NCBI RefSeq assembly: GCF_023702225.1
Contig: NZ_JAMQCO010000001.1
Location: forward strand, 124,001 to 188,000
Direction of reading: 5' to 3'
Origin: Aureimonas altamirensis
Lineage (GTDB): Bacteria; Pseudomonadota; Alphaproteobacteria; Rhizobiales; Rhizobiaceae
Length of the DNA: 64,000 nucleotides
Positions 13,638 to 51,902 of this stretch are shown here, one piece after another (the first letter of the stretch is position 1; every line of letters begins with the position of its first letter). The position numbers were made by a program, and so were the translations under genes. The notes beneath the pieces are model-generated. The model did not search any database, was not told the origin of the DNA, and saw nothing but the letters and a program-made list of their open reading frames with translations.

Positions 13638-14432
13638 TCACGATTGCCAGACCGGCCGGCGCTTTTCGATGAAGGCGGAAATGCCTTCGCGCGCATCGGC
13701 TTCCATCATGTTGCAGGCCATGACCTCGCTGGCGTGCCCATAGGCGTCCGCGAGGGAAAGGCCGCGCTGGCGGTTGAACAGCGCCTTGCCGTGGCGGATG
13801 GCTGCCGAGCTCTTGTCCAGAATAGAAGCGAGAAGCTTGTCCACCGCGGCGTCCAGCGCTTCATCGGGCACGGCGGCATTGACGAGGCCCCAGTCGGCGG
13901 CCCGTGCGGCATCGATGAACTCTCCCGTCACCAGCATCTCGAAGGCGCGCTTGGCGGCCACGTTGCGCGACAGCGCGACGGCGGGGGTGGAACAGAAAAG
14001 CCCGGCATTGATGCCCGATGTGGCGAACCGTGCGCTCTGCCCGGCGATGGCCAGGTCGCAGCTGGCGACGAGCTGGCAACCGGCCGCGGTGGCCACGCCG
14101 TGCACCTTCGCGATGACCGGCACGGGCAGCTCCACGATGGCCTGCATGACCTGGCTGCATAGCTGGAAAAGCGCACGATGCGCGTCGATATCGTCCGCCG
14201 CAAGCATCTCCTTCAGATCGTGGCCGGCGCAGAAGGCGCGCCCGTTGCCGGACAGGACGACGGCGCGCAGGCCATTGTCTCCCGACAGCCGGCCCAGTTC
14301 CTCGCGGAGCCGGAACAGAAGCTCTTCCGAAAGCGCATTCAGTTGCGCCGGCCGGTCCAGCATCAGGCGAGCGACGCCGCCGTCCCGCCGGACGAGGACG
14401 GGTGGCCCCTCCCCCATTGCATCATCCCGCAT
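13638..14432 (-). CDS. Enoyl-CoA hydratase/isomerase family protein
   Basis: This 264-residue crotonase-fold protein has the oxyanion-hole segments GNGRAFCAGHDLKEM and GVATAAGCQLVASCDLAIA, and ATSGINAGLFCSTPAVALSR, which is typical of the enoyl-CoA hydratase clade annotated as ECHDC3/PaaG-like. It probably hydrates or isomerises a CoA thioester made by the downstream ligase. ATG at 14432 is supported by GGAGGAG at a proper distance; the longer upstream frame lacks family similarity. Its stop touches the start region of the ligase gene, so they are one transcript. It is divergent from the AhpD-like/AcuI-like pair. Confidence 0.88.
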   Translation of the reverse strand: MRDDAMGEGPPVLVRRDGGVARLMLDRPAQLNALSEELLFRLREELGRLSGDNGLRAVVLSGNGRAFCAGHDLKEMLAADDIDAHRALFQLCSQVMQAIVELPVPVIAKVHGVATAAGCQLVASCDLAIAGQSARFATSGINAGLFCSTPAVALSRNVAAKRAFEMLVTGEFIDAARAADWGLVNAAVPDEALDAAVDKLLASILDKSSAAIRHGKALFNRQRGLSLADAYGHASEVMACNMMEADAREGISAFIEKRRPVWQS

Positions 14433-14536
14433 CTTCCAGTCTCCTCCCCGGGTCGATGACGTGAGCGGAGCATAGGTCGACGGCCACCGTTCCGGCAATC
14501 CGTCTTCGAACGACAGGCAGCGAGGGAGGAAACCGC

Positions 14537-15121
14537 ATGCAGGAGCCCAAGATCAGCCGTTTCACACCGCCGGACCTCGCGTCGCTGCCGCCGGACATCC
14601 TGGAGCGAATCAGGACGGTGCAGGAAAAGGCCGGGTTCGTGCCGAACGTCTTCCTGGTTCTGGCCGCGCGGCCCGCGGAATTTCGCGCCTTCTTCGCCTA
14701 TCACGATGCGCTGATGGAAAAGCCCGGCGGGCTGACGCCGGCCGAGCGCGAGATGATCGTGGTAGCCACAAGCGCCGCCAACCAGTGCCAGTATTGCGTG
14801 ATCGCCCACGGCGCCATCCTGCGGGTACGGGCCAGAAACCCGCTGATCGCCGATCAGGTGGCCGTCAATTATCGCAAGGCGGATATCACCCCGCGCCAGA
14901 TGGCGATGCTGGATTTCGCGATGCAGGTGGCGCTGGCCGCCGAAACGGTGGACGAAGACGACTACGAGCGGCTGGCCGAACACGGCTTCACGCAGGAGGA
15001 GGCCTGGGACATCGCTGCCATCGCAGCCTTTTTCGGCATGTCGAACCGCCTCGCAAACGCCTTTTCCATGCGGCCCAATACGGAATTCTACGCACTCGGA
15101 CGGCAGGAGAAGGGCGCATGA
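14537..15121 (+). CDS. Peroxidase-related (AhpD-like, carboxymuconolactone decarboxylase fold) protein
   Basis: This 194-residue protein has the AhpD/CMD fold with the redox motif CQYC (Cys84, Cys87) and His91 in ANQCQYCVIAHGA. It belongs to the uncharacterised peroxidase-related enzyme group. The N-terminus (ISRFTPPDLASLPPDI) and C-terminus (FGMSNRLANAFSMRPN) match that group. It could reduce peroxides using a thiol partner; substrate and reductant are unknown. An ATGA overlap at 15118-15121 couples it to the AcuI-like gene, so the two probably act together. The start has GGGAGGA upstream. Confidence 0.85.
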   Translation: MQEPKISRFTPPDLASLPPDILERIRTVQEKAGFVPNVFLVLAARPAEFRAFFAYHDALMEKPGGLTPAEREMIVVATSAANQCQYCVIAHGAILRVRARNPLIADQVAVNYRKADITPRQMAMLDFAMQVALAAETVDEDDYERLAEHGFTQEEAWDIAAIAAFFGMSNRLANAFSMRPNTEFYALGRQEKGA

Positions 15122-18640: not shown

Positions 18641-19715
18641 CCAGGGGATTGTCGATCAGCGCGGACCTGTCCGGCGCATCGCTGCGCAGGCCACCGGCAA
18701 AGGCGGCGAACAGATCGCGCAGCCTGGCCTCGTCCAGCCGCTCGCCGATCAGCACGAAGCGGCTGTGCGGCCGGATGGATTGCGGCCATTCGCGCAGGAA
18801 GGCCGGCGGATGCAGGAACCGGCGCACCGCATGCAGCACCAGCGGGCGTGCCGGGTTTTCCCGCGTCAGCAGCATGGCCTTCATGCGCAGCAGCCTGTCG
18901 CCGTGCAGCGACAGGACGAGGTTCACGAATTCCTCCATCTGCCCGATGGGCAACGGCGTATCCGACAGGATCGACACGGTATTCACCAGTCCGTGCCCGT
19001 GCCCGTGCCCTTCATGATGGTGATGATCATGATGGTGCGGATCGCCGCAGCCGCACCCGCCATCGCCAAGCCACGCGGCCAGTTGCGCCTCCCGCGTGCG
19101 GGAATTGACGACGCCGGCCTCCATCAGCGTAGCGGGCACGGCTTCGCCTTTGGCCGCATCCAGAAGCCGCGCACGCGGGTTCAGCCGCGCGATCCACGAG
19201 AGAAGGTCGGCACCCGGCTCCGACAGGTCGGACTTGGTCAATACGATCCGGTCGGCAACGGCGACCTGGCGTTCCGCCTCGGCACGACCCTCGATGCCGG
19301 AAAGGCCGGCATGGACGTCGACCAGCGTCACGACCCCGTCCAGCGCATAGGCCTGCGCCAGCACCGGATGCCCCATCATGGATGTCAGGACCGGCGTCGG
19401 GTCCGCCATTCCCGTGGTTTCGATCAGCACGCGCTCTATGGGCGGCAAGCGGCCGGTCTGCAGCCGGTCCACGATATCGGCGAGCCGGTCCACCAGTTCG
19501 CCACGCACGGAGCAGCAGATGCATCCGTTGGACAATTCGACGATCTCCTCGCTGGCGCTTTCCACCAGCAGATGATCCAGCCCCGCTTCACCGAACTCGT
19601 TCACGATCACGGCGCTGCGCGCCATGTCGGGATGCTTCAGCAGCGCATTGAGAAGCGTCGTCTTTCCCGCGCCGAGAAACCCTGTCAGCACCGTTACGCG
19701 CAGGGGAAGGTTCAT
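18624..19715 (-). CDS. COG0523/CobW-family GTPase, putative metal chaperone
   Basis: This 363-residue G3E-family GTPase has Walker [11 protein letters not shown] (residues 11-20), the metal-binding CxCC motif in NGCICCS (Cys65, Cys67, Cys68), TKSD as the guanine-specificity motif (160-163) and a Cys/His-rich linker at about 219-242. The linker has two CG dipeptides and more than ten histidines, followed by a CobW C-terminal domain. Such proteins deliver Zn, Co or other metals to enzymes. The ATG overlaps the TGA of the D,D-carboxypeptidase gene (ATGA), so both are made from one mRNA. Carboxypeptidases of some families need zinc, but the coupled one is a serine enzyme, so the link may be regulatory. 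Confidence 0.9.
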
Positions 19716-20893
19716 TGCGCGGCTTCCCGCGTGTCGGCAGGTGTCGACAGGACGCGCGCCGCGCGCCCGGCGTCCGCTGCCGCATCGCCCGTTTCGACGA
19801 GCTGGGGCGGCTCCGGCCGCCATGTGGGCACCGGGATGCCGTAGCCGGCGATGACGGAGACGCCCGGCGCCGCACCGTGGCCGCCGGCTGCACCGCCGAG
19901 CTCGACCGGATAGACGACCGGGTCGCGGTCCAGCGCCGTCAGGAAGGGCGAACCGAAAGGCTGTTCCCGGTCGTTCTCCAGCTTGCGCTCGTTGGCGCGC
20001 GCGGTGCGCGCCTCGGGCGAGCAGACCGTTTCGGAAACGTCGAAGGGCGGTCCGCTCGACGACGGCAGTTGCGCCACGGTGAACTCGGCCTTCGCGGGAT
20101 CCACCTTGAATCCGTCTTCCAGCAGGCGGGCGGACTCCCGCTCGCGGGAAATCGGCCCCTCTGCCCCGAGCACGACGGCCACGATGGTGCGTCCGTCGCG
20201 CGTGGCGCTGGAAACGAGGTTGAAGCCCGATGCGCAGATATAGCCCGTCTTCATCCCGTCCGCCCCGCGCAGACGGCCCAGAAGCCCGTTGCCATTGACC
20301 ATGGTCGCGTCGCCGGCCCGGATGGCCTCGGTGGAAAAGTAATCGGTAAAGGCCGGAAACTCATGACGGATCGCCACCGCAAGGATGGCGAGGTCCTTGG
20401 CGCTGGAATACTGGCCGGGTCCGGGCAGGCCGTTGGGGTTGATGAAGTGCGTGTCCCGCATGCCCAGGCGCGCCGCCTCGGCATTCATGCGGGCGACGAA
20501 GCCCTCGTGAGAGCCTCCGATGGACTCGGCCAGCGCCACGGCGATGTCGTTGGCGGATTTGACGAGCAGCATCCGCAAAGCCTTGTCCAGCCGGATGACG
20601 GAGCCGGCGGGGTACCCCATCTTGCTGGGCGCCTGCGCGGCCGCGAGCCGCGTGACCACGACGGGCGTATCCAGCGAAGCCCGGCCGGCCTGCACCTCGC
20701 GCAGCACCAGATAGGCGGTCATGAGCTTCGTGGTCGAGGCCGGATACCAGCGCTGGCTGGCATTGTCCTGCGACAACACCTTGCCCGTCGCCACATCGAC
20801 GGCGATGGACGGTCCAGCCTCGGCCGGAAGCGCGGACAGCGCCGCCAGCAACGCAATCGCCGCGCAAACTCCTCGTCCGCCTGCCCAAGCCAT
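19712..20893 (-). CDS. Serine D-alanyl-D-alanine carboxypeptidase (DacF/PBP5-like)
   Basis: This 393-residue exported enzyme trims the pentapeptide stem of peptidoglycan. A signal peptide (residues 1-26, AEAG) leads into the penicillin-binding fold with all three motifs: Ser53-Thr-Thr-Lys56, Ser113-Ala-Asn115 and Lys215-Thr-Gly217. The C-terminal extension (about 290-393) is Pro/Ala-rich and shows no clear amphipathic anchor. It is followed, with ATGA overlap, by the COG0523 GTPase gene. The promoter should lie in the 148-bp divergent gap shared with the M20 gene; I see no clear Zur box there. Confidence 0.9.
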
Positions 20894-21041: not shown

Positions 21042-22223
21042 ATGCCGATTCACGACCGCATCGCCGACGAGATAACGGAGATCGCCGCCTGGCGCCGGCA
21101 TCTCCATACCATTCCCGAACTGCTGTACGACACGGTCGATACGGCAGCCTATGTTGCCGGCAAACTCGTCGAGTTCGGCTGCGACGTCGTGGAGACGGGG
21201 ATCGGGCGCACGGGCGTCGTCGGCATCGTGCACGGACGCTCCGGCCCTGGCGGCCCGATGATCGGCCTGCGCAGCGACATGGACGCGCTGCCCATAGAGG
21301 AGGCGAGCGGCGTTGCCTATGCGTCCACGCGCCCCGGTCGGATGCACGCCTGCGGACACGATGGACACATGGCCATGCTGCTCGGCGCGGCACGGGCCCT
21401 TGCCCGGACGCGCGATTTCGAGGGCAGCGTGGCGCTGATCTTCCAGCCGGCCGAAGAAGGCGGCGCCGGTGCGAAGGCCATGATCGAGGATGGGTTGTTC
21501 GTGCGGTTCCCCATCCGCCGCGTCTACGGCATGCACAATCTGCCGGGACTTGCCGTCGGGCGCTTCGCCATGCGGGACGGGCCCATCATGGCCGCCACGG
21601 ACGAATTCGCCTTCGCCATCGTCGGCCGGGGTGGCCATGCCGCAATCCCGCAGAAGACGGACGACCCCATCCTGGCCGGCACGGCGCTGGTGGGCGCCCT
21701 CCAGCAGATCGTCTCGCGCAACGCCGATCCGCTGGACAGCCTCGTCGTCTCCGTGACGGAGTTCCATTCCGGTTTCGCGCACAACGTCATTCCCGACACG
21801 GCCCGCGTATCCGGCACCGTGCGCAGCCTGTCGGCACAGACCCGCGACCATGTCGAGGCGCGGATGGGCGCGATCGCCGAAGGCATCGCCACCATTCATG
21901 GCGTATCCGTGAGGCTGGACTATCGTCGCAACTACCCTGTGACGCGCAATCATACGGCCGAACTGGCTCTGGCCGCAGAGGCGGCCGCTTTGGTGGCGGG
22001 GCACGACGCCGTCGATCGATCCTGCCCGCCGCTGATGGCCGCGGAAGATTTCTCCTACATGCTCGAGCAGCGGCCCGGCGCGTTCATCTTCATCGGCAAC
22101 GGGCCGAGTGCGGGCCTGCATAATTCGGCCTACGACTTCGCCGACGATGCCATCGGCTACGGCGCATCCTACTGGATCGCGCTCGTGGAGCGGAGCTTGT
22201 CCGGGTCCGATGAAGGATCATGA
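21042..22223 (+). CDS. M20-family amidohydrolase (hippurate hydrolase-like)
   Basis: This 393-residue zinc- or manganese-dependent amidase is of the M20D group (HipO, IAA-amino acid hydrolase). Metal and catalytic sites are seen in RSDMDALP (Asp81), MHACGHDGHM (Cys104, His106), FQPAEEGGAGA, MHNLPG and the C-terminal histidine in SAGLHNSAYD. The dimerisation domain, starting at FAFAIVGRGGHAAIPQKTDDP, is complete. Substrates are N-acyl amino acids or hippurate-like amides; the specific one is unknown. It stands alone, divergent from dacF, with no binding-protein or permease partner. Confidence 0.9.
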   Translation: MPIHDRIADEITEIAAWRRHLHTIPELLYDTVDTAAYVAGKLVEFGCDVVETGIGRTGVVGIVHGRSGPGGPMIGLRSDMDALPIEEASGVAYASTRPGRMHACGHDGHMAMLLGAARALARTRDFEGSVALIFQPAEEGGAGAKAMIEDGLFVRFPIRRVYGMHNLPGLAVGRFAMRDGPIMAATDEFAFAIVGRGGHAAIPQKTDDPILAGTALVGALQQIVSRNADPLDSLVVSVTEFHSGFAHNVIPDTARVSGTVRSLSAQTRDHVEARMGAIAEGIATIHGVSVRLDYRRNYPVTRNHTAELALAAEAAALVAGHDAVDRSCPPLMAAEDFSYMLEQRPGAFIFIGNGPSAGLHNSAYDFADDAIGYGASYWIALVERSLSGSDEGS

Positions 22224-44454: not shown

Positions 44455-45119
44455 GCACGCTCCTGTAAGGCGGGCCGGGTCAGGCCACCGGTATCTTCAA
44501 GGAAGGCGACGATGGCGTCCACCCCCTTCCCGCGTGACAGATCGGCGAAGATGGTCGGCAACGTGCCGCGTCCGATAGCCGCGTCGCGCTCCATCCGGCC
44601 GAGATCGGCGCCGACATAGGGGGCGAGATCAGTCTTGTTGACGATCAGCAAGTCCGACCGCGTGATGGCGGGTCCGCCCTTGCGCGGGATGTCGTCGCCC
44701 TGGCACACGGAGACGACATAGACCGACAGGTCCACGAGATCGGGCGAGAAGGTCGCAGCCAGATTGTCGCCGCCCGACTCCACCAGCACCAGGTCCAGGT
44801 CGGCATGCCGCTCGGTCAGCGTGCGGATGGCCGCGATGTTGATGGACGCATCCTCGCGGATGGCCGTATGCGGGCAGCCGCCTGTTTCGACGCCGATGAT
44901 GCGGTCGGCCGGCAGCGCCTGCCGCCGCACCAGCGCCTCGGCATCCTCCACCGTATAGATATCGTTGGTGACGACACCGATCGAATGCCGGTCGCGCAGT
45001 GCGACGCACAGCTTCTCGCACAAGGTCGTCTTGCCGGACCCGACCGGCCCGCCGATACCGACGCGAAGCGGGCCATGTCGGCGCCTCGTACCTGCGAGGT
45101 TCCTTTCGGCAAGGTTCAT
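44451..45119 (-). CDS. ureG: Urease accessory GTPase UreG
   Basis: This 222-residue GTPase drives nickel insertion into urease with UreD, UreE and UreF. Walker [18 protein letters not shown] is at about residues 21-37, the metal-binding CPH in [17 protein letters not shown] near 77, and the base-recognition NKTDLAP near 161. It is coupled by ATGA to ureF upstream and, with the same overlap, to xdhA downstream. There is no histidine-rich N-terminal extension, as expected where UreE carries the His tail. Confidence 0.96.
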
Positions 45120-45778
45120 GATCGGAAAACCCTCGTCTTCTGTGTCTCGTGCCGCATGGCCGCGATATCGGAAAGGAACGCCGCGGAGCCGAGCCCGTCA
45201 AGCCCGCTTGTCGCGGCGCGGCGCGCCGCCGCAAGGCACGGGAGTTCCAGCCTGTGGGCGATATGCACCATGTCGCTCTGCCCCAGCGGTATCAGGCGTG
45301 TCGCGGCCGTCGTCAGGTTGGCGGCGAAGGCATGGGCATAGGCGGCCAGCGTCGGCTCGATGCCGACGCCGCACCGGGCCGCCACCGCGCCCACCGCGAC
45401 GGGATAGGGCAGCGCATGGGGCATGTCGGCCCAGGGGCGCGCCGCCTCGATGAAGGCCGCTCCGAGCGCGGCGGTTTCCGCCCGCCGCTCGAGGCTGCCG
45501 CCGAGCGCGATGCAGAGGGACGCGGCCTCGTCCAGCGCGGCCCCGTCGCCCGAATTATCCGCGCGCCACGCAGCGGCAAGAAGGACGAGGTCGTTCCAGC
45601 CACTGCCTTGCCCGATCAGCGTGGAGATCCATTGCCGCACGGAATCGCGGTCGTGCAGGACACCGTCGACGATGGCAGCCTCAACTCCGTGCGAAAAGGC
45701 GAAGGCGCCGACGGGAAAGCCGGGGGAAAGCCACGTCATGAGCCGGACCAGCGCATGGTCCGACGCCGGGTCAGTCAT
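45116..45778 (-). CDS. ureF: Urease accessory protein UreF
   Basis: This 220-residue all-helical protein binds UreD and recruits UreG during nickel incorporation. UreF landmarks are [24 protein letters not shown] near the N-terminus and [19 protein letters not shown] near residue 165. ATG at 45778 overlaps the ureE stop by 8 bp and is followed by ureG with ATGA. A slightly longer start (45805) is possible but would extend far into ureE. The gene appears intact. Confidence 0.93.
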
Positions 45779-46226
45779 AGTGATGGTGATGGCCATGGCC
45801 CGCATAGGCGCCGGCGGCAGGGTCGAAGGCGGCTTCCACGTCTTCCAGCGTCCCGCCGAGCCCGCGCACCATCTCGGCGATCACATGGTCGCGCCGGATC
45901 AGCAGGCAGTCGCCGGAGATCGCCGTCGGCAGATGCCGGTTGCCCAGGTGCCAGGCCAGCGTCAGCAGGTGCGCCGCATCGCGACCGCGCACGGCATGGA
46001 GTTCTTCCGGCTTGGCGCGCACTTCGATGAGCCGCCCGTCGCCCAGCACGATGGCGTCGCCCTCGCGCAGCAGCACGGCCTCCGCAAGGTTGAGAAGAAA
46101 GGCGATACCGCCGTCCGAAACCATGGCCATGCGGCGTCGGTGCCGCTGGCTTTCGTCCAGGGTGATGGTGTCGGCCAGCGGGCCGGGCCCGGCCTCGCGG
46201 GGGATGATTGTTTCAGCTTCGATCAC
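45771..46226 (-). CDS. ureE: Urease accessory nickel metallochaperone UreE
   Basis: This 151-residue nickel metallochaperone has the N-terminal peptide-binding domain ([24 protein letters not shown]) and the C-terminal metal-binding domain ([27 protein letters not shown]). It ends in a histidine tail, GHGHHHHYD. The tail binds nickel. The gene overlaps ureF by 8 bp. Upstream, after 7 bp, is the MliC-like gene rather than ureC, which is unusual. Confidence 0.95.
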
Positions 46227-46233
46227 GCCGGTT

Positions 46234-46575
46234 TCAAGCCTTCTTCTGCGTGCAGGTGACGGGGGCGGCGTCGCTTTCCATCTCGTTGGAGAAGGTCACG
46301 CTTTCGCCCTTGCTCCACCAGACATACTGGCGCGCGGCATACCGCGCGCCCGAGCCCGCGATCACGTTGACGAATACCACCGGTGCGCCGTCGATGCCCA
46401 CGATCGCCAGGCTGTTTTCTCCCACGTTGATGTAGTCCGCGCTGCGGTCGACACCGTCGGAACAGGAATAGACGACCGTCGTCCGCTCGACCTGCCCGGG
46501 CAGGTCCAGTTCGACCGGGGCCGCAAGTGCGCCCACAGGGGCAAGCATGATTGCGGCGGCGAAGATGCGGTGCAT
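46234..46575 (-). CDS. MliC-family exported protein (c-type lysozyme inhibitor-like)
   Basis: This 113-residue protein has a signal peptide ([18 protein letters not shown]) and an MliC/PliC-like beta-barrel pattern: [47 protein letters not shown] and a C-terminal Cys in VTCTQ. Two cysteines could form the family disulfide. There is no lipobox, so it would be a soluble periplasmic protein. MliC proteins inhibit host or environmental lysozymes. It lies between ureC and ureE on the same strand, with gaps of 49 and 7 bp, so it is part of the urease transcript. Confidence 0.8.
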
Positions 46576-46624
46576 GTCGGGCGCTCCGTTCCGTTGCGTG
46601 TCCCGTCCTTAGATAAAGGCCGTT

Positions 46625-48337
46625 TCAGAACAGGAAATAGCGCTGCGCCATCGGAAGCACCGCCGACGGCTCGCAGGTCAGGAGCTCGCCGTCGGCGCGC
46701 ACCTCGTAGGTTTCGGGGTCCACCTCGATATGCGGCGTCCTGTCGTTGAGGATCATGGAGGCCTTGGAGATGCCGCCGCGCGTGTTTTGCACCGGCAGGA
46801 AGGCGCGCTCGCAGCCGAGCCGCTCCACGATGCCGTCGTCCAGCGCCGCCTGCGACACGAAATGCGCGGTGGACGCACCGACCGCCTTTCCGAAAGCGCC
46901 GAACATCGGGCGGTAATGCATAGGCTGCGGCGTCGGAATGGAGGCGTTCGGGTCTCCCATCGGGGCGGCCGCGATGGTGCCGCCCAGAAGCACCATCTCG
47001 GGCTTCACGCCGAAGAAGGCCGGGTTCCACAAGACGAGGTCGGCCCGCTTGCCAACCTCTATCGAGCCGATCTCGCGCGACAGGCCATGCGCGATGGCGG
47101 GGTTGATCGTGTATTTGGCGATATAGCGGCGGACGCGGAAATTGTCGTTATCGCCGGTCTCCTCGGCCAGCGCGCCGCGCTGGCCCTTCATCTTGTCGGC
47201 GGTCTGCCATGTGCGGATGATGACTTCGCCCACGCGGCCCATGGCCTGGCTGTCCGACGAGATGATCGAGAAGGCGCCGATATCGTGCAGGATATCCTCC
47301 GCCGCGATCGTCTCCTTGCGGATGCGGCTTTCCGCGAAGGCGATGTCCTCCGGAATGGACGGGTCCAGATGATGGCACACCATCAGCATGTCGAGATGCT
47401 CTTCCAGCGTGTTTACCGTGTAGGGCCGCGTTGGGTTGGTGGAGCCGGGCAGCACGTTGGGCAGGCCGCAGACCTTGATGATGTCCGGCGCATGGCCGCC
47501 GCCCGCCCCTTCCGTGTGGAAGGCGTGGATGGTGCGACCCCGGAAGGCGTCGACCGTGTTTTCCACGAAGCCGCTTTCGTTCAGCGTGTCTGTATGGATC
47601 ATCACCTGCACGTCGAAGGCGTCGGCTACCGAAAGGCAGCAGTCGATGGCGGCGGGCGTGGTGCCCCAGTCCTCGTGGAGCTTCAGCGCACCGGCCCCGG
47701 CGCGCACCATCTCTTCCAGCGCCGCGGGGCGCGAGGCGTTGCCCTTGCCGGACAGGACGAAGTTCATCGGAAAGGCATCCAGCGCCTGCAGCATGCGGGC
47801 CATATGCCACGGGCCAGGCGTGCAGGTGGTTGCCAGCGTGCCGTGCGCCGGGCCCGTTCCGCCGCCGATCATGCAGGTGACGCCCGAGTAGAGCGCCTCG
47901 TCGATCTGCTGCGGCGCGATGAAGTGGATATGCGCGTCGATACCGCCCGCCGTCACGATCTTGCCTTCGCCGGCTATCGCCTCCGTGCCGGGGCCGACGA
48001 TTATGGTGACGCCGGGCTGCGTGTCGGGGTTGCCGGCCTTTCCGATGGCGGCGATGCGCCCGTCCCGAAGGCCGATATCGGCCTTGTAGATGCCGGTGTG
48101 ATCGACGATCAGCGCGTTGGTGATGACCGTGTCGACCGCGCCTTCGGCACGCGAGGCCTGCGACTGGCCCATGCCGTCGCGGATTACCTTGCCGCCGCCG
48201 AACTTCACCTCTTCGCCATAGATGGTATGGTCGGACTCGACCTCGACGATCAGGCCGGTATCGGCCAGCCGCACTTTATCACCGGTGGTCGGGCCATACA
48301 TGGAGGCATAGGTTGACCGGTCTATCCTGGCTGGCAT
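46625..48337 (-). CDS. ureC: Urease subunit alpha
   Basis: This 570-residue catalytic subunit hydrolyses urea to ammonia and carbamate in the cytoplasm. The nickel site is complete: [14 protein letters not shown], the carbamylated lysine in [22 protein letters not shown], the [14 protein letters not shown] loop and the flap region [22 protein letters not shown] with the key Cys-His-His. ATG at 48337 has GGAG upstream and gives the standard length; a start at 48379 adds residues absent from the family. Upstream, two plus-strand genes separate it from ureB. Confidence 0.97.
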
Positions 48338-48454
48338 CGCAAGTCTCCGGGCATCGATGGGCGGCGTACGAGTCGCCACCTCGGAATGCCTGAGTTTTAA
48401 GCTGATCCCGCCTCTGTTCGCAATGCGTGCAGCGTCGATGAAAGGGAGATTCCC

Positions 48455-48892
48455 ATGGCTACCCCGAAGGGCCTTGTTCTGGCCGGGCTGACCGCGCTCG
48501 CGGCGACGCTTTCGACAGAGGCCGTCGCGCAGCCCTACGAGCCCGGACCGCTCGGCCGGGTCCCGGGCTCTTCCGTATCCGGCATGCGGATCGACGGCGC
48601 GCCGCGCGTCCGGCGCAATGTCGATATTCCACGCGCCAAGGTTTACGGGGATACGGTGGAAGAGCGCGCCTATGGCCGGGAGTTCGACGACAGCTATTTG
48701 CGCCCCAAGGTCGTGCAGCCACGCGCCGCCCCACCGGTGGAATTGCGTGCGACGGAAGGCCGCTCGGATCTGAACACCATCAATTCCGGCGTGTTCTCGC
48801 GGTCGGACCCCGGCGTCATCAGCCGCAGCGGCGTGACCCGCCCGCAGTTGAAGCCGCCCCGGGTGAAAGATCGGGCCCGTATCGTCGAATGA
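48455..48892 (+). CDS. Hypothetical exported protein, 145 residues, inside urease cluster
   Basis: I do not recognise the family. A good Sec signal peptide ([25 protein letters not shown]) precedes a proline- and arginine-rich, low-complexity mature region ([54 protein letters not shown]). It is predicted to be periplasmic, largely unstructured and basic. The start has AAAGGGAG at good spacing. It is divergent from ureC and followed after 69 bp by another exported-protein gene, both antisense to a transcript from ureB to ureC. No link to urease chemistry is evident. Confidence 0.65.
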
Positions 48893-48961
48893 GGCTTCTC
48901 AACCGTGCGGAACCGCTGCATTCTCCTGGCAGTTGAAGCTGCACAACCGTCGCTATCCAGG

Positions 48962-49387
48962 ATGAACGAAATGACCATAGCCAGAGTTTCGATTGCCGCC
49001 ATGCTCGCGCTCGGCCTGGGCGTCCCGGCCATGGCGCAGGATCTTGGCGGCGCAGGCGCGGGCGGCGGCTCCAGCCTCGGCGGCGCGGGCGTATCGGTGG
49101 GCGGCACGTCCGGCGGCGTCGGCGCCGGGCCGGACCCGGCAGCATCTGCCGGCTCGTCCAGCATCAACAGCCTCAATGTGGACGACGCGGCCCGCACGGG
49201 CGATTTCGGTGCAGCGACGACCATCGGCGGCACTTATGGCGGCACGGATGATTTCCAGTCGCTTGCCCGTACGGGCCCTTCGCGTCTTTACGACATTCCG
49301 CGCCCGCATGTCGGCGTGCAGCTGGAGCAGATCCGCTCCGCGCTGCGCATGTGGCCCAGCGCAACGCCGAAGCCCGACGGTTCCTGA
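48962..49387 (+). CDS. Hypothetical exported glycine-rich protein, 141 residues, inside urease cluster
   Basis: I do not recognise the family. A signal peptide (MNEMTIARVSIAAMLALGLGVPAMA) leads into a glycine-rich stretch (QDLGGAGAGGGSSLGGAGV, then SVGGTSGGVGAGPDPAAS) and a C-terminal part with RTGDFGAATTIGGTYGGTDDFQSLARTGPSRLYDIPRP. It would be exported and flexible. It lies between two ure genes on the opposite strand: 69 bp after the other exported-protein gene and only 4 bp short of the convergent ureB stop. ATG at 48962 is the first start with a signal peptide. Confidence 0.65.
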   Translation: MNEMTIARVSIAAMLALGLGVPAMAQDLGGAGAGGGSSLGGAGVSVGGTSGGVGAGPDPAASAGSSSINSLNVDDAARTGDFGAATTIGGTYGGTDDFQSLARTGPSRLYDIPRPHVGVQLEQIRSALRMWPSATPKPDGS

Positions 49388-49391
49388 TGAC

Positions 49392-49697
49392 CTAGAGCGC
49401 GCCCATCACCCGCGCATTGAAACCATAGACCGTGCGGCTGCCGGACAATGGAACCAGCGTCACGTCGCGCCCCTGCCCCGGCTCGAAGCGAACGGCCGTA
49501 CCGGCCGCAATGTCGAGGCGCATGCCGTGTGCGGCTTGCCTGTCGAAAGCCAGGGCCGGGTTCGTCTCGGCGAAATGGTAATGCGAGCCGACCTGAACCG
49601 GCCGGTCGCCCGTATTGTCGACGCGCAGCGTAATCGCCGCCGCACCGGCGTTGAGGACGATCTCGCCCGGCTTCACGATCACTTCACCCGGAATCAT
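49392..49697 (-). CDS. ureB: Urease subunit beta
   Basis: This 101-residue urease beta subunit is of typical length and begins [18 protein letters not shown], with the conserved [18 protein letters not shown] and GARVMGAL-like C-terminus ([15 protein letters not shown]). ATG at 49697 has GAGG five bases upstream; the frame extends further upstream but not with ureB homology. It is separated from ureA by a plus-strand gene and from ureC by two plus-strand genes, so the three structural genes are spread out. Confidence 0.95.
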
Positions 49698-49787
49698 GCA
49701 GACCTCGCCCATTGATGGTCGGTCGATCATAACGACGCCCGTTGGCGGCGCAACTCTTTGACGCGCCATCCGTTAACCATACGCATC

Positions 49788-49816
49788 TTGAATGCCGCCT
49801 TTCACGATCGCATATA
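49788..49816 (+). promoter_or_regulatory. Possible promoter of the plus-strand gene between ureA and ureB
   Basis: TTGAAT (49788-49793) and CATATA (49811-49816) are 17 bases apart, about 60 bases upstream of the ATG at 49879. The fit to a sigma-70 promoter is moderate; it suggests the small exported gene has its own promoter against the urease direction. Confidence 0.3.
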
Positions 49817-49878
49817 CAGACAAGTTCACGCGGCAAGCGTATTGAAGACCGCGTCACCGGATGGTGGGAACGGAAACC

Positions 49879-50076
49879 ATGAAATCGCTGATCGCCCTCG
49901 CCGGAGGGCTTACCCTCGTGGCCCTCTCGTCCGGCGCTGCCGGAACGGGCGCTTCCGACGTAACCCGTGTCGTCACCATCGGCGATCGCACGGGACCCGC
50001 CTTCTATTCCGCCATCGAAGGCCGCTATCGCTTCGTCGAGAAGGATGGCGGCATGGTTGCCGACCTGCCCCGCTGA
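49879..50076 (+). CDS. Small exported hypothetical protein, 65 residues, between ureA and ureB
   Basis: I do not recognise the family. A signal peptide (MKSLIALAGGLTLVALSSGAAG) is followed by a short mature part with VTIGDRTGPAFYSAIEGRYR. It is predicted periplasmic, about 40 residues after cleavage. It is read against ureA and ureB and ends 4 bp from the ureA stop. The 181-bp region before it carries a candidate promoter and belongs to the gap upstream of ureB. Whether it is expressed is unknown. Confidence 0.55.
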   Translation: MKSLIALAGGLTLVALSSGAAGTGASDVTRVVTIGDRTGPAFYSAIEGRYRFVEKDGGMVADLPR

Positions 50077-50080
50077 AGGC

Positions 50081-50383
50081 TCAGCGTATCGGCTCGTGTA
50101 CGGTCACGAGCTTGGTTCCGTCGGGGAAAGTCGCCTCCACCTGAATATCGTGGATCATCTCGGCGATCCCGTCCATGACCTGGTCCCGCGTCAGCACCGA
50201 CGCGCCGGCCGCCATCAGATCGGCGACGCTGCGCCCATCGCGCGCGCCTTCCACGACGTAATCGGTGATCAGCGCGATGGCTTCCGGGTGGTTCAGCTTC
50301 ACGCCGCGTTCGAGCCGCCTGCGCGCCACCATCGCGGCCATGGAAACCAGGAGCTTGTCCTTCTCGCGGGGGGTCAGGTTCAT
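50081..50383 (-). CDS. ureA: Urease subunit gamma
   Basis: This 100-residue subunit starts [39 protein letters not shown] and contains [24 protein letters not shown], both diagnostic for UreA. It forms the (alpha-beta-gamma)3 urease with UreB and UreC. ureD is 24 bp upstream on the same strand. Downstream, its stop is 4 bp from that of a convergent plus-strand small gene. Confidence 0.96.
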
Positions 50384-50407
50384 CGATCTACCTTCGGGAT
50401 TTCAAGT

Positions 50408-51202
50408 TCAACTCGACCATAGGCGCGGCAATGGCGCGTCGGCCAGCACTTCCAGCACCGGGATCAACGTTTTCCGCAATCGATAACCATCCTCGGCCAC
50501 GATGCGCACCGCCAGCAGCCCCTCGAAGACGCTTGCGCCGCCCGCCCGTGGCGGCAGCCTTTCGCGCACCGCGCCAAGGCGCATCGATGCGTCCGGCAGT
50601 TGCGCGACGATCGTCGCGAAGGCGCGCGCGCCATCCAGCGTCGCGGCCTGCCGGCCAAGCTCGCCGATCGCGCCGGAAAGCCGCGCCTCTTCGGCATGGA
50701 GCAACCGGCCGCCGCGCCGTATGCGCCAACGCTCGTGCAGCAGCCCGGACGCGACGGTCTCGCCCATGGCCGCCCGGCCTAGCACCACGCTCTCGCACAG
50801 CAGGAACGTCGCACTGGAAGCGGCGTCCAGCGTCAGGCTGCGGCGCAGCTCTGCGGCATCGTAGAGGATCGTCTCCTGCGGCAGCCAGAACAGCCGCGCG
50901 CCCGCGCCCGCCATCAGCTTGACGTCCAGCTGCGCCGGGCCGCCCAGTGCGCGATAGACGCGTTCCGCCGCCTGGGTCGTCACCGTCAGCGCCGCCCCGT
51001 CGGCAACCGTCATGCCGACATCCAGACGGTCTCCACCCGCCATTCCGCCGGCCGTGTTGACCAGCACAGCCTCTGCCGAAGGCAGGCGCGGAAAACGCAG
51101 CTTGAGGCAACCCTCCTGGTACAGGTCGGCGATGCGCGTGCGGCCCGCCTGCAGGTGCACCCGCAGCGACGCCGCGCCGCGTGCCCGCTGCAAGGTGGGC
51201 AT
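50408..51202 (-). CDS. ureD: Urease accessory protein UreD
   Basis: This 264-residue UreD/UreH scaffold binds the urease apoprotein and recruits UreF and UreG. Family segments are GCLKLRFPR, VLVNTAGGMAGGDRL, TTQAAERVYR and LFWLPQETILYDAAELRRSL. ATG at 51202 is preferred: it lies four bases after the urtE stop and begins the conserved region, whereas a start at 51256 would overlap urtE. It is the first gene of the urease part, tied to the urea transporter genes upstream. Confidence 0.92.
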   Translation of the reverse strand: MPTLQRARGAASLRVHLQAGRTRIADLYQEGCLKLRFPRLPSAEAVLVNTAGGMAGGDRLDVGMTVADGAALTVTTQAAERVYRALGGPAQLDVKLMAGAGARLFWLPQETILYDAAELRRSLTLDAASSATFLLCESVVLGRAAMGETVASGLLHERWRIRRGGRLLHAEEARLSGAIGELGRQAATLDGARAFATIVAQLPDASMRLGAVRERLPPRAGGASVFEGLLAVRIVAEDGYRLRKTLIPVLEVLADAPLPRLWSS

Positions 51203-51206
51203 GCCG

Positions 51207-51902
51207 TCAGACGGTAAGGTGCCTGCGCACGGAAGGGTCATCCAGATCCTCGCCAACTCCGTCGAACACGATCTGCCCGCGATCCATGATGTAGACCTTG
51301 TCGGCCAGGTCGCGGCAGAAATCGAGATACTGTTCCACCAGCAATATGGCCAGTCCCGCCTCGTCCTTCAGGAAGCGGATGGCCCGCCCGATATCCTTGA
51401 TGATGGACGGCTGGATGCCTTCGGTCGGCTCGTCCAGCACCAGCAGGCGCGGCCGGGTGACGAGCGCCCGCCCGATGGCAAGCTGCTGCTGCTGGCCGCC
51501 CGACAGGTCGCCGCCCCGCCGGCCCAGCATGCTCTTCAGCACGGGAAACAGCTCGAAGACATGGTCGGGTATACTCATGTCGGCGCGCTTGAGCGGCGCG
51601 TATCCGGTCATCAGGTTTTCCCGCACCGTCAGCAGCGGAAAAATCTCGCGCCCCTGCGGCACGAAGCCGATGCCGCGTCGGGCGCGGCGGTAGGGCGCTT
51701 CGCCGGCGATCGCCGCCCCGTCGAATTGGATGGCGCCGCGCCGTATGGACTGCTGGCCCACGATGGCGCGCATCAGGCTGGTCTTTCCGACGCCGTTGCG
51801 CCCGAGGACGCAGGTGATCTGCCCTTGGCCCGCTGTCAGGGAGACGCCGCGCAGGGCCTGCGCCGCGCCGTAATAGAGGTCGATATCGTCGACTTTCAGC
51901 AT
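51207..51902 (-). CDS. urtE: Urea ABC transporter ATP-binding subunit UrtE
   Basis: This 231-residue ATPase is of the LivF type. Walker A GRNGVGKTSL is at about residues 32-41, signature LSGGQQQQLAIGRAL near 134 and Walker B LLVLDEPTEGIQPSI. It pairs with UrtD to power urea uptake. The start at 51902 (MLKVDDIDLYYGAAQAL) follows urtD by 4 bp. It ends 4 bp before ureD, so transport and hydrolysis genes are likely cotranscribed. Confidence 0.95.
   Translation of the reverse strand: MLKVDDIDLYYGAAQALRGVSLTAGQGQITCVLGRNGVGKTSLMRAIVGQQSIRRGAIQFDGAAIAGEAPYRRARRGIGFVPQGREIFPLLTVRENLMTGYAPLKRADMSIPDHVFELFPVLKSMLGRRGGDLSGGQQQQLAIGRALVTRPRLLVLDEPTEGIQPSIIKDIGRAIRFLKDEAGLAILLVEQYLDFCRDLADKVYIMDRGQIVFDGVGEDLDDPSVRRHLTV

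Follow-up and report, generated by a model that had tools for sequence, protein, structure and literature searches.

Three conserved opposite-strand genes lie inside the urease cluster of Aureimonas and related genera

The urease cluster of Aureimonas altamirensis, read from the minus strand, is interrupted at two sites by three plus-strand genes, here called P1, P2 and P3, which judged from their sequences are genuine conserved genes. They were found in a window of 64,000 nucleotides (contig NZ_JAMQCO010000001.1, positions 124,001 to 188,000), the whole stretch of DNA that was analysed. The genes themselves, the selection acting on them, their architecture and geometry, and their persistence where urease is gone are directly supported. 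The best explanation, which we hold to be moderately probable, is that genuine embedded P genes have mostly been kept in place and that their expression is coupled with that of the ure genes via overlapping 3′ ends. The features of the cluster are as follows (positions are those of the window).

45116-45805, minus strand: ureF (Pfam)
45771-46226, minus strand: ureE (Pfam)
46234-46575, minus strand: MliC-type lysozyme-inhibitor gene, between ureC and ureE (PF09864, E 1e-12)
46625-48379, minus strand: ureC (urease alpha), an open reading frame recovered by tblastn in relatives
48380-48454: divergent spacer between ureC and P1, 75 bp
48455-48892, plus strand: P1, 145 aa, divergent to ureC; undescribed family, probably exported
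48971-49387, plus strand: P2, Gly/Ser-rich with a conserved C-terminal part, convergent with ureB; probably exported
49392-49769, minus strand: ureB (urease beta; PF00699, E 3.6e-45)
49770-49878: divergent spacer between ureB and P3, 109 bp, counted to the P3 ATG at 49879
49879-50076, plus strand: P3, 65 aa, divergent to ureB and convergent with ureA; probably exported
50081-50383, minus strand: ureA (urease gamma; PF00547, E 1.2e-47)
50408-51256, minus strand: an open reading frame that we take to be ureD, from sequence recognition and conserved position

An earlier note on this DNA had described three plus-strand genes inside the minus-strand urease cluster, two of them ending 4 bp from a ure stop codon. 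The open reading frames are present and their coordinates correct, and the stop codons of P2 and ureB, and likewise of P3 and ureA, are 4 bp apart in the window. The note had started P2 at 48962, which is indeed an in-frame ATG; we instead use the ATG at 48971, which gives a protein of 138 aa with a signal-peptide-like beginning, a GTG at 48905 being a further in-frame alternative. P3 is counted from the ATG at 49879, the list of open reading frames offering the ATG at 49861 as an alternative. In the clade-wide sets the start codons of the P genes were chosen automatically, and some are clearly too long (e.g. in genome G067).

The first sample comprised 61 genomes, 21 of the same genus (the query's own and 20 further Aureimonas genomes) and 40 others. 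P1 and P2 each had matches in every one of the 21 same-genus genomes and in none of the other 40, P1 with 92% identity to its A. altamirensis counterpart, and P3 was found in 8 of the 61 by single-sequence search. Profile searches detected P1 in 36 of 394 family genomes (11 of 109 genera) and in one of 297 genomes of an order-wide sample, the query's own; P3 was detected in at least 34 of the 394 family genomes, part of which are weak matches to longer proteins encoded at other places. Because only 10-15 candidates were scored per genome, these profile counts of presence are lower bounds. Substitutions in P1 pile up at third codon positions (7/7/54 at the three positions, G000 versus G013). 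Over 10 close pairs, dN/dS is 0.05-0.22 for P1, 0.07-0.31 for P2 (one pair without nonsynonymous change set aside) and 0.03-0.43 for P3 (one pair with a 26-codon fragment and no nonsynonymous change set aside); the ureB row for G004/G006 was disregarded as a frame artefact (pN 0.79). A lack of conservation of the plus-strand frames had been named beforehand as the outcome that would sink the idea of embedded genes; they are conserved over 49 genomes, with dN/dS well below 1.

The products of all three genes are probably exported envelope proteins. In the aligned sequences (13/13 for P1 and 10/10 for P2, picked from 52 P1 and 51 P2 rows) the N-terminal hydrophobic stretch is always followed by an A-Q pair, which we read as a putative signal-peptidase site. 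A motif of about 34 aa is common to P1 and P2 (hhalign probability 91, E 1e-6), so that the two may be old, distant duplicates. The earlier note had recognised none of the families, and comparison of P1-P3 with Pfam and NCBIfam likewise returned no family above the curated cut-off; the sole sub-threshold match of P2, Sporozoite_P67 (12.4 bits against a cut-off of 28.9), comes from its low-complexity part. P1, P2 and P3 thus appear to represent three undescribed conserved protein families. AlphaFold2 models of P1 (mean pLDDT 53, from a 6-sequence alignment) and P3 (mean pLDDT 47, from a 3-sequence alignment) are without confident fold and, at these values, too poor for fold searches, and the P1 profile matched only ribosomal L4 among PDB sequences (best E 0.021).

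Related sequences were also seen away from the three genes. Several family genomes encode exported-looking proteins of about 110 aa with a P3-like N-terminal part (L152, L153, L154, L155, L157, L160), and none of the three that were tested matched a Pfam family above the cut-off; P3 could belong to a wider family in shortened form. G012 has a second P2-like gene (L158 5839-6438) hundreds of kb from its P locus, and G096 has a Gly/Ser-rich, exported-looking open reading frame at the P2 position (L147 10394-10873) that the P2 profile missed.

The architecture was read over about 14-20 kb around P1 in 49 genomes, 21 of Aureimonas and 28 from ten further genera. Three more loci stand outside the architecture and distance counts (L057 and L058, presumed duplicates of G320 and G235, and L056, which is one more genome), and G096 is uncounted for P2, its P2 match having fallen inside P1. 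In relatives, PF00449 puts ureC beside P1. The earlier note had proposed homology searches and neighbourhood comparison and had named homologues unlinked to urease everywhere as a refuting outcome; what was found is P1 divergent to an adjoining ureC in 45 of the 49 genomes, the 49 coming from 11 genera. P2 lies downstream of P1 on the same strand in 47/49, and a convergent ureB follows past P2 in 39/49. P3 stands opposite ureB in 40/49, namely in 37 genomes with P3 beyond ureB at the locus (29 of which have ureA beyond P3 within the same stretch) and in three genomes with split clusters (G071, G234, G235), where P1, P2 and ureC are together while P3 lies opposite ureB at another place, which in G071 is precisely the gap between ureA and ureB. 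Profile search and locus reading did not find P3 in seven of the 49 genomes (G007, G017, G066, G131, G167, G320, G341), the presence counts being lower bounds; four of the seven retain ureA and ureB at the locus. The interleaved layout, traced over the 11 sampled genera, is accordingly an old one.

Four genomes (G013, G005, G017 and G167), which a P1 gene tree (no support values) divides into three lineages, have a P locus without ure structural genes and retain P1 and P2 there. All four have another urease elsewhere: a compact cluster with a ureC of about 70% identity to that of the window in G013 and G005, one with a ureC of 58% identity in G017, and a compact one without P genes and with a ureC of 80% identity in G167, which could be the native cluster after a move. 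In G013 and G005, P1, P2 and P3 stand in a row beside MliC and ureE, and the 3′ end of ureC persists between MliC and P1 (blastn), as does an inner 40-bp ureC piece that is clearer in G005 (87.5%, E 8e-5) than in G013 (82.5%, E 0.02). These remnants indicate loss in place, so that in both genomes the interleaved arrangement came first; no convincing ureC remnant turned up by tblastn in either G017 or G167, and in-place loss is thus seen for G013 and G005 only. Between the latter two, dN/dS is 0.069 for P1, 0.071 for P2 and 0.026 for P3. The P genes are therefore under purifying selection without adjoining ure structural genes, which argues that the P proteins do not depend on adjacent urease genes, even if a role together with the other urease is conceivable. 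After the loss of the other native ure genes, both genomes keep ureE and MliC beside P1 (L034 7655-8411 and L035 7898-8672, ure-oriented), and their second urease cluster carries a ureE-like match of its own.

The close spacing of convergent ends varies over the clade. P2 and ureB are at most 40 bp apart in 17 of 39 genomes and more than 40 bp, up to 2464 bp, in 22, so that tight overlap there is not general; P3 and ureA are at most 40 bp apart in 19 of 29, eight of these overlapping by 4 or 26 bp. A consensus scan of 46100-51300 gave three terminator-like sites (2.8 expected) and one promoter-like site (0.9 expected), with no terminator-like site on either strand between 47186 and 51300. As the stop codons stand too close for a terminator to fit between them and this interval holds no terminator-like site, overlapping 3′ ends are expected.

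The spacers between ureC and P1 and between ureB and P3 would be the obvious promoter sites. In the latter, TTGAAT (49788-49793) and CATATA (49811-49816), separated by 17 bp, were noticed by eye and missed by the consensus scan; they make a weak candidate for a P3 promoter. A TTGAA-N17-CATAT-like pair upstream of P3, again seen by eye, is common to G000, G013 and G005, in the last two of which ureB is gone, and six near relatives share a weak TTGAC-like pair upstream of ureB. A looser promoter scan of 150-bp upstream regions (score at least 9, compared with mononucleotide shuffles) gave slight excesses, namely 6/49 for P1 (1.1 expected), 2/48 for P2 (0.7), 2/39 for P3 (0.9) and 6/41 for ureB (0.4), all six of the ureB sites coming from one near-relative group; it gave no excess for ureC (1/45 against 1.1) and none for ureA or ureD (0/33 each). 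A CtrA-like site upstream of P3 was considered and dropped: the motif, TTAACCAT or TTAA-N7-TTAA, occurs within 200 bp upstream of 3/39 P3 genes, all from near relatives, and of 0/52 P1 and 0/51 P2 genes.

The course of events that we propose would run as follows. P1-P3 would have been embedded opposite ure no later than in the common ancestor of the 11 sampled genera around Aureimonas and Fulvimarina, P1 and P2 probably being distant duplicates, and would act as proteins without need of the adjoining urease genes. Transcription of ure would run leftwards and that of the P genes rightwards, in the simplest case starting in the two divergent spacers. At the convergent ends P2/ureB and P3/ureA, which leave no terminator room, the transcripts would overlap at least at their 3′ ends, and this overlap would couple ure and P expression in an excludon-like manner. 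Export, promoters, overlapping RNAs and coupling are thus what we infer, and we favour a coupling via overlapping ends without a full reciprocal switch. Excludons are described as overlapping transcripts of neighbouring genes (PMC7154746); convergent pairs without terminator room are the common trait, the overlap at P2/ureB and P3/ureA being predicted from geometry.

Quite possible, if on balance doubtful, is a passive history, in which the P genes landed in an ancestor and stay by ordinary synteny, with separate transcription and termination and no regulatory consequence. Urease and P genes have been lost or kept independently, P3 was not found at four loci that retain ureA and ureB, and synteny in a control was nearly as high: the two genes of an unrelated divergent pair of the window, 19715-20893 (minus) and 21042-22220 (plus), are neighbours in 26 of 28 non-Aureimonas genomes (counted by eye; the exceptions are G081 and G216), against 27 of the same 28 for P1 and ureC. 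Adjacency alone is therefore weak evidence and no proof of regulation. Of the 14 genomes with matches to both members of a second control pair, 13641-14498 and 14537-15118, none has them side by side, though the homologues there may not be orthologues. Two further neighbours of the cluster, MliC and urtE, were less frequent, being present in 11/28 and 12/28 non-Aureimonas stretches, counts that are limited by stretch length. Against a history without consequence stand the convergent ends, 4 bp apart or overlapping, where some transcript overlap is hard to avoid, and the orientation of the genes, since same-strand intercalated genes are the rule in sampled relatives.

The earlier note had thought the opposite-strand orientation unusual, and the relatives bear this out. 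In 28 family and order urease loci without P genes, 28 of the 30 intercalated open reading frames supported by at least two other genera (a manual count and judgement) run with urease, and the two exceptions (in G031 and G055) look like reverse-strand shadows. Genes in the same gaps of the sampled relatives are, by recognition, presumably HupE-like, LprI-like, DUF1272-like and cyclase-like. The urease cluster of R. leguminosarum, reportedly described by Toffanin et al. in 2002, is said to hold extra genes between ureA, ureB, ureC and ureE; whereas such rhizobial intercalated genes run with urease, P1-P3 (plus) run opposite to ure (minus). The open-licence PMC literature, subscription papers being outside it, contained among the matches listed no description of opposite-strand genes in urease clusters of Aureimonas or its kin. 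An origin of the P genes by overprinting, on the reverse strand of older genes intercalated in the ure direction, was unsupported: a search of 47 minus-strand intercalated open reading frames against the P loci gave 560 hits, and the 33 that overlapped P genes all came from one query, itself a reverse-strand shadow of P1. Separately, G028, which has no P1 or P3 match, carries between ureC and ureB a plus-strand, exported-looking open reading frame of 164 aa with strong GC3 (L065 6690-7184, ure-oriented), so that opposite-strand insertion may have occurred more than once.

It is rather unlikely that the locus is a true noncontiguous operon, in which one ureD-A-B-C mRNA would run across P3, P2 and P1, and polymerase collision and RNase III would let each side repress the other. 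As in such operons, P1-P3 are opposite-strand genes inside a functionally linked set, and this layout is retained across 11 genera. The model case is menE-menC-MW1733-ytkD-MW1731 of S. aureus, where the flanking genes are reported to be co-transcribed across the inserted one and the two sides to regulate each other (PMC7154746). The two loci are alike in that an opposite-strand protein-coding gene interrupts genes of one process; the P locus differs in having three such genes, at two sites, among the subunit genes of one enzyme, in a layout traced over 11 genera. Antisense control of urease as such has a precedent in H. pylori, where ureAB is controlled by the 5′ureB-sRNA (PMC8322730), a non-coding RNA, while P1-P3 are protein-coding genes. 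The Rfam model of this RNA (RF02514) matches the plus strand inside ureC (47896-48183, 122.9 bits), but it also matches nine of nine other urease loci, most of them without P genes; the match therefore seems to follow ureC coding conservation, and it was dropped as evidence for an antisense RNA. Against a single operon stand the four genomes whose P genes have outlived the ure structural genes of the locus, the ordinariness of conserved divergent neighbours here, as the control pair shows, and the divergent spacers upstream of ureB and ureC, which could give each of these genes a promoter of its own.

We think it unlikely, too, that two opposite-strand operons are interleaved gene by gene such that their full-length mRNAs, complementary to each other, would form a switch that allows either urea hydrolysis or an envelope state but not both, retained over 11 genera.

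A working partnership of P1-P3 with urease, in which they might as envelope proteins help to handle urea or nickel, seems improbable. All 49 genomes with P1 have urease (21/21 same-genus genomes by UreA and 28/28 others by UreC), and P1 mostly adjoins ureC (45/49), but this co-occurrence says little because urease is common in the first sample (49 of 61 genomes), where 40 of 61 genomes are without a P1 match. Exported proteins would not meet the cytoplasmic enzyme, and selection acts on the P genes of G013 and G005, where urease is encoded by a different, compact cluster at another place. That the P genes are chance open frames in GC-rich DNA, a reading that could point to the reverse-strand open reading frames also overlapping P1 and P2, is refuted by the protein-level conservation over 49 genomes and the low plus-frame dN/dS.

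Coupling of embedded P genes and ure via overlapping 3′ ends, our preferred reading, bears on a wider question. Noncontiguous operons have been described from few loci, and whether such arrangements are kept for regulation or by accident is the question at stake. The layout over 11 genera holds natural controls, namely sister species in which the urease side, but not the opposite one, has been deleted, and species whose cluster is split, which makes the question testable by strand-specific RNA-Seq. The P locus would thus be a good natural test of mutual regulation by opposite-strand genes, and it brings to attention what appear to be three undescribed conserved protein families.
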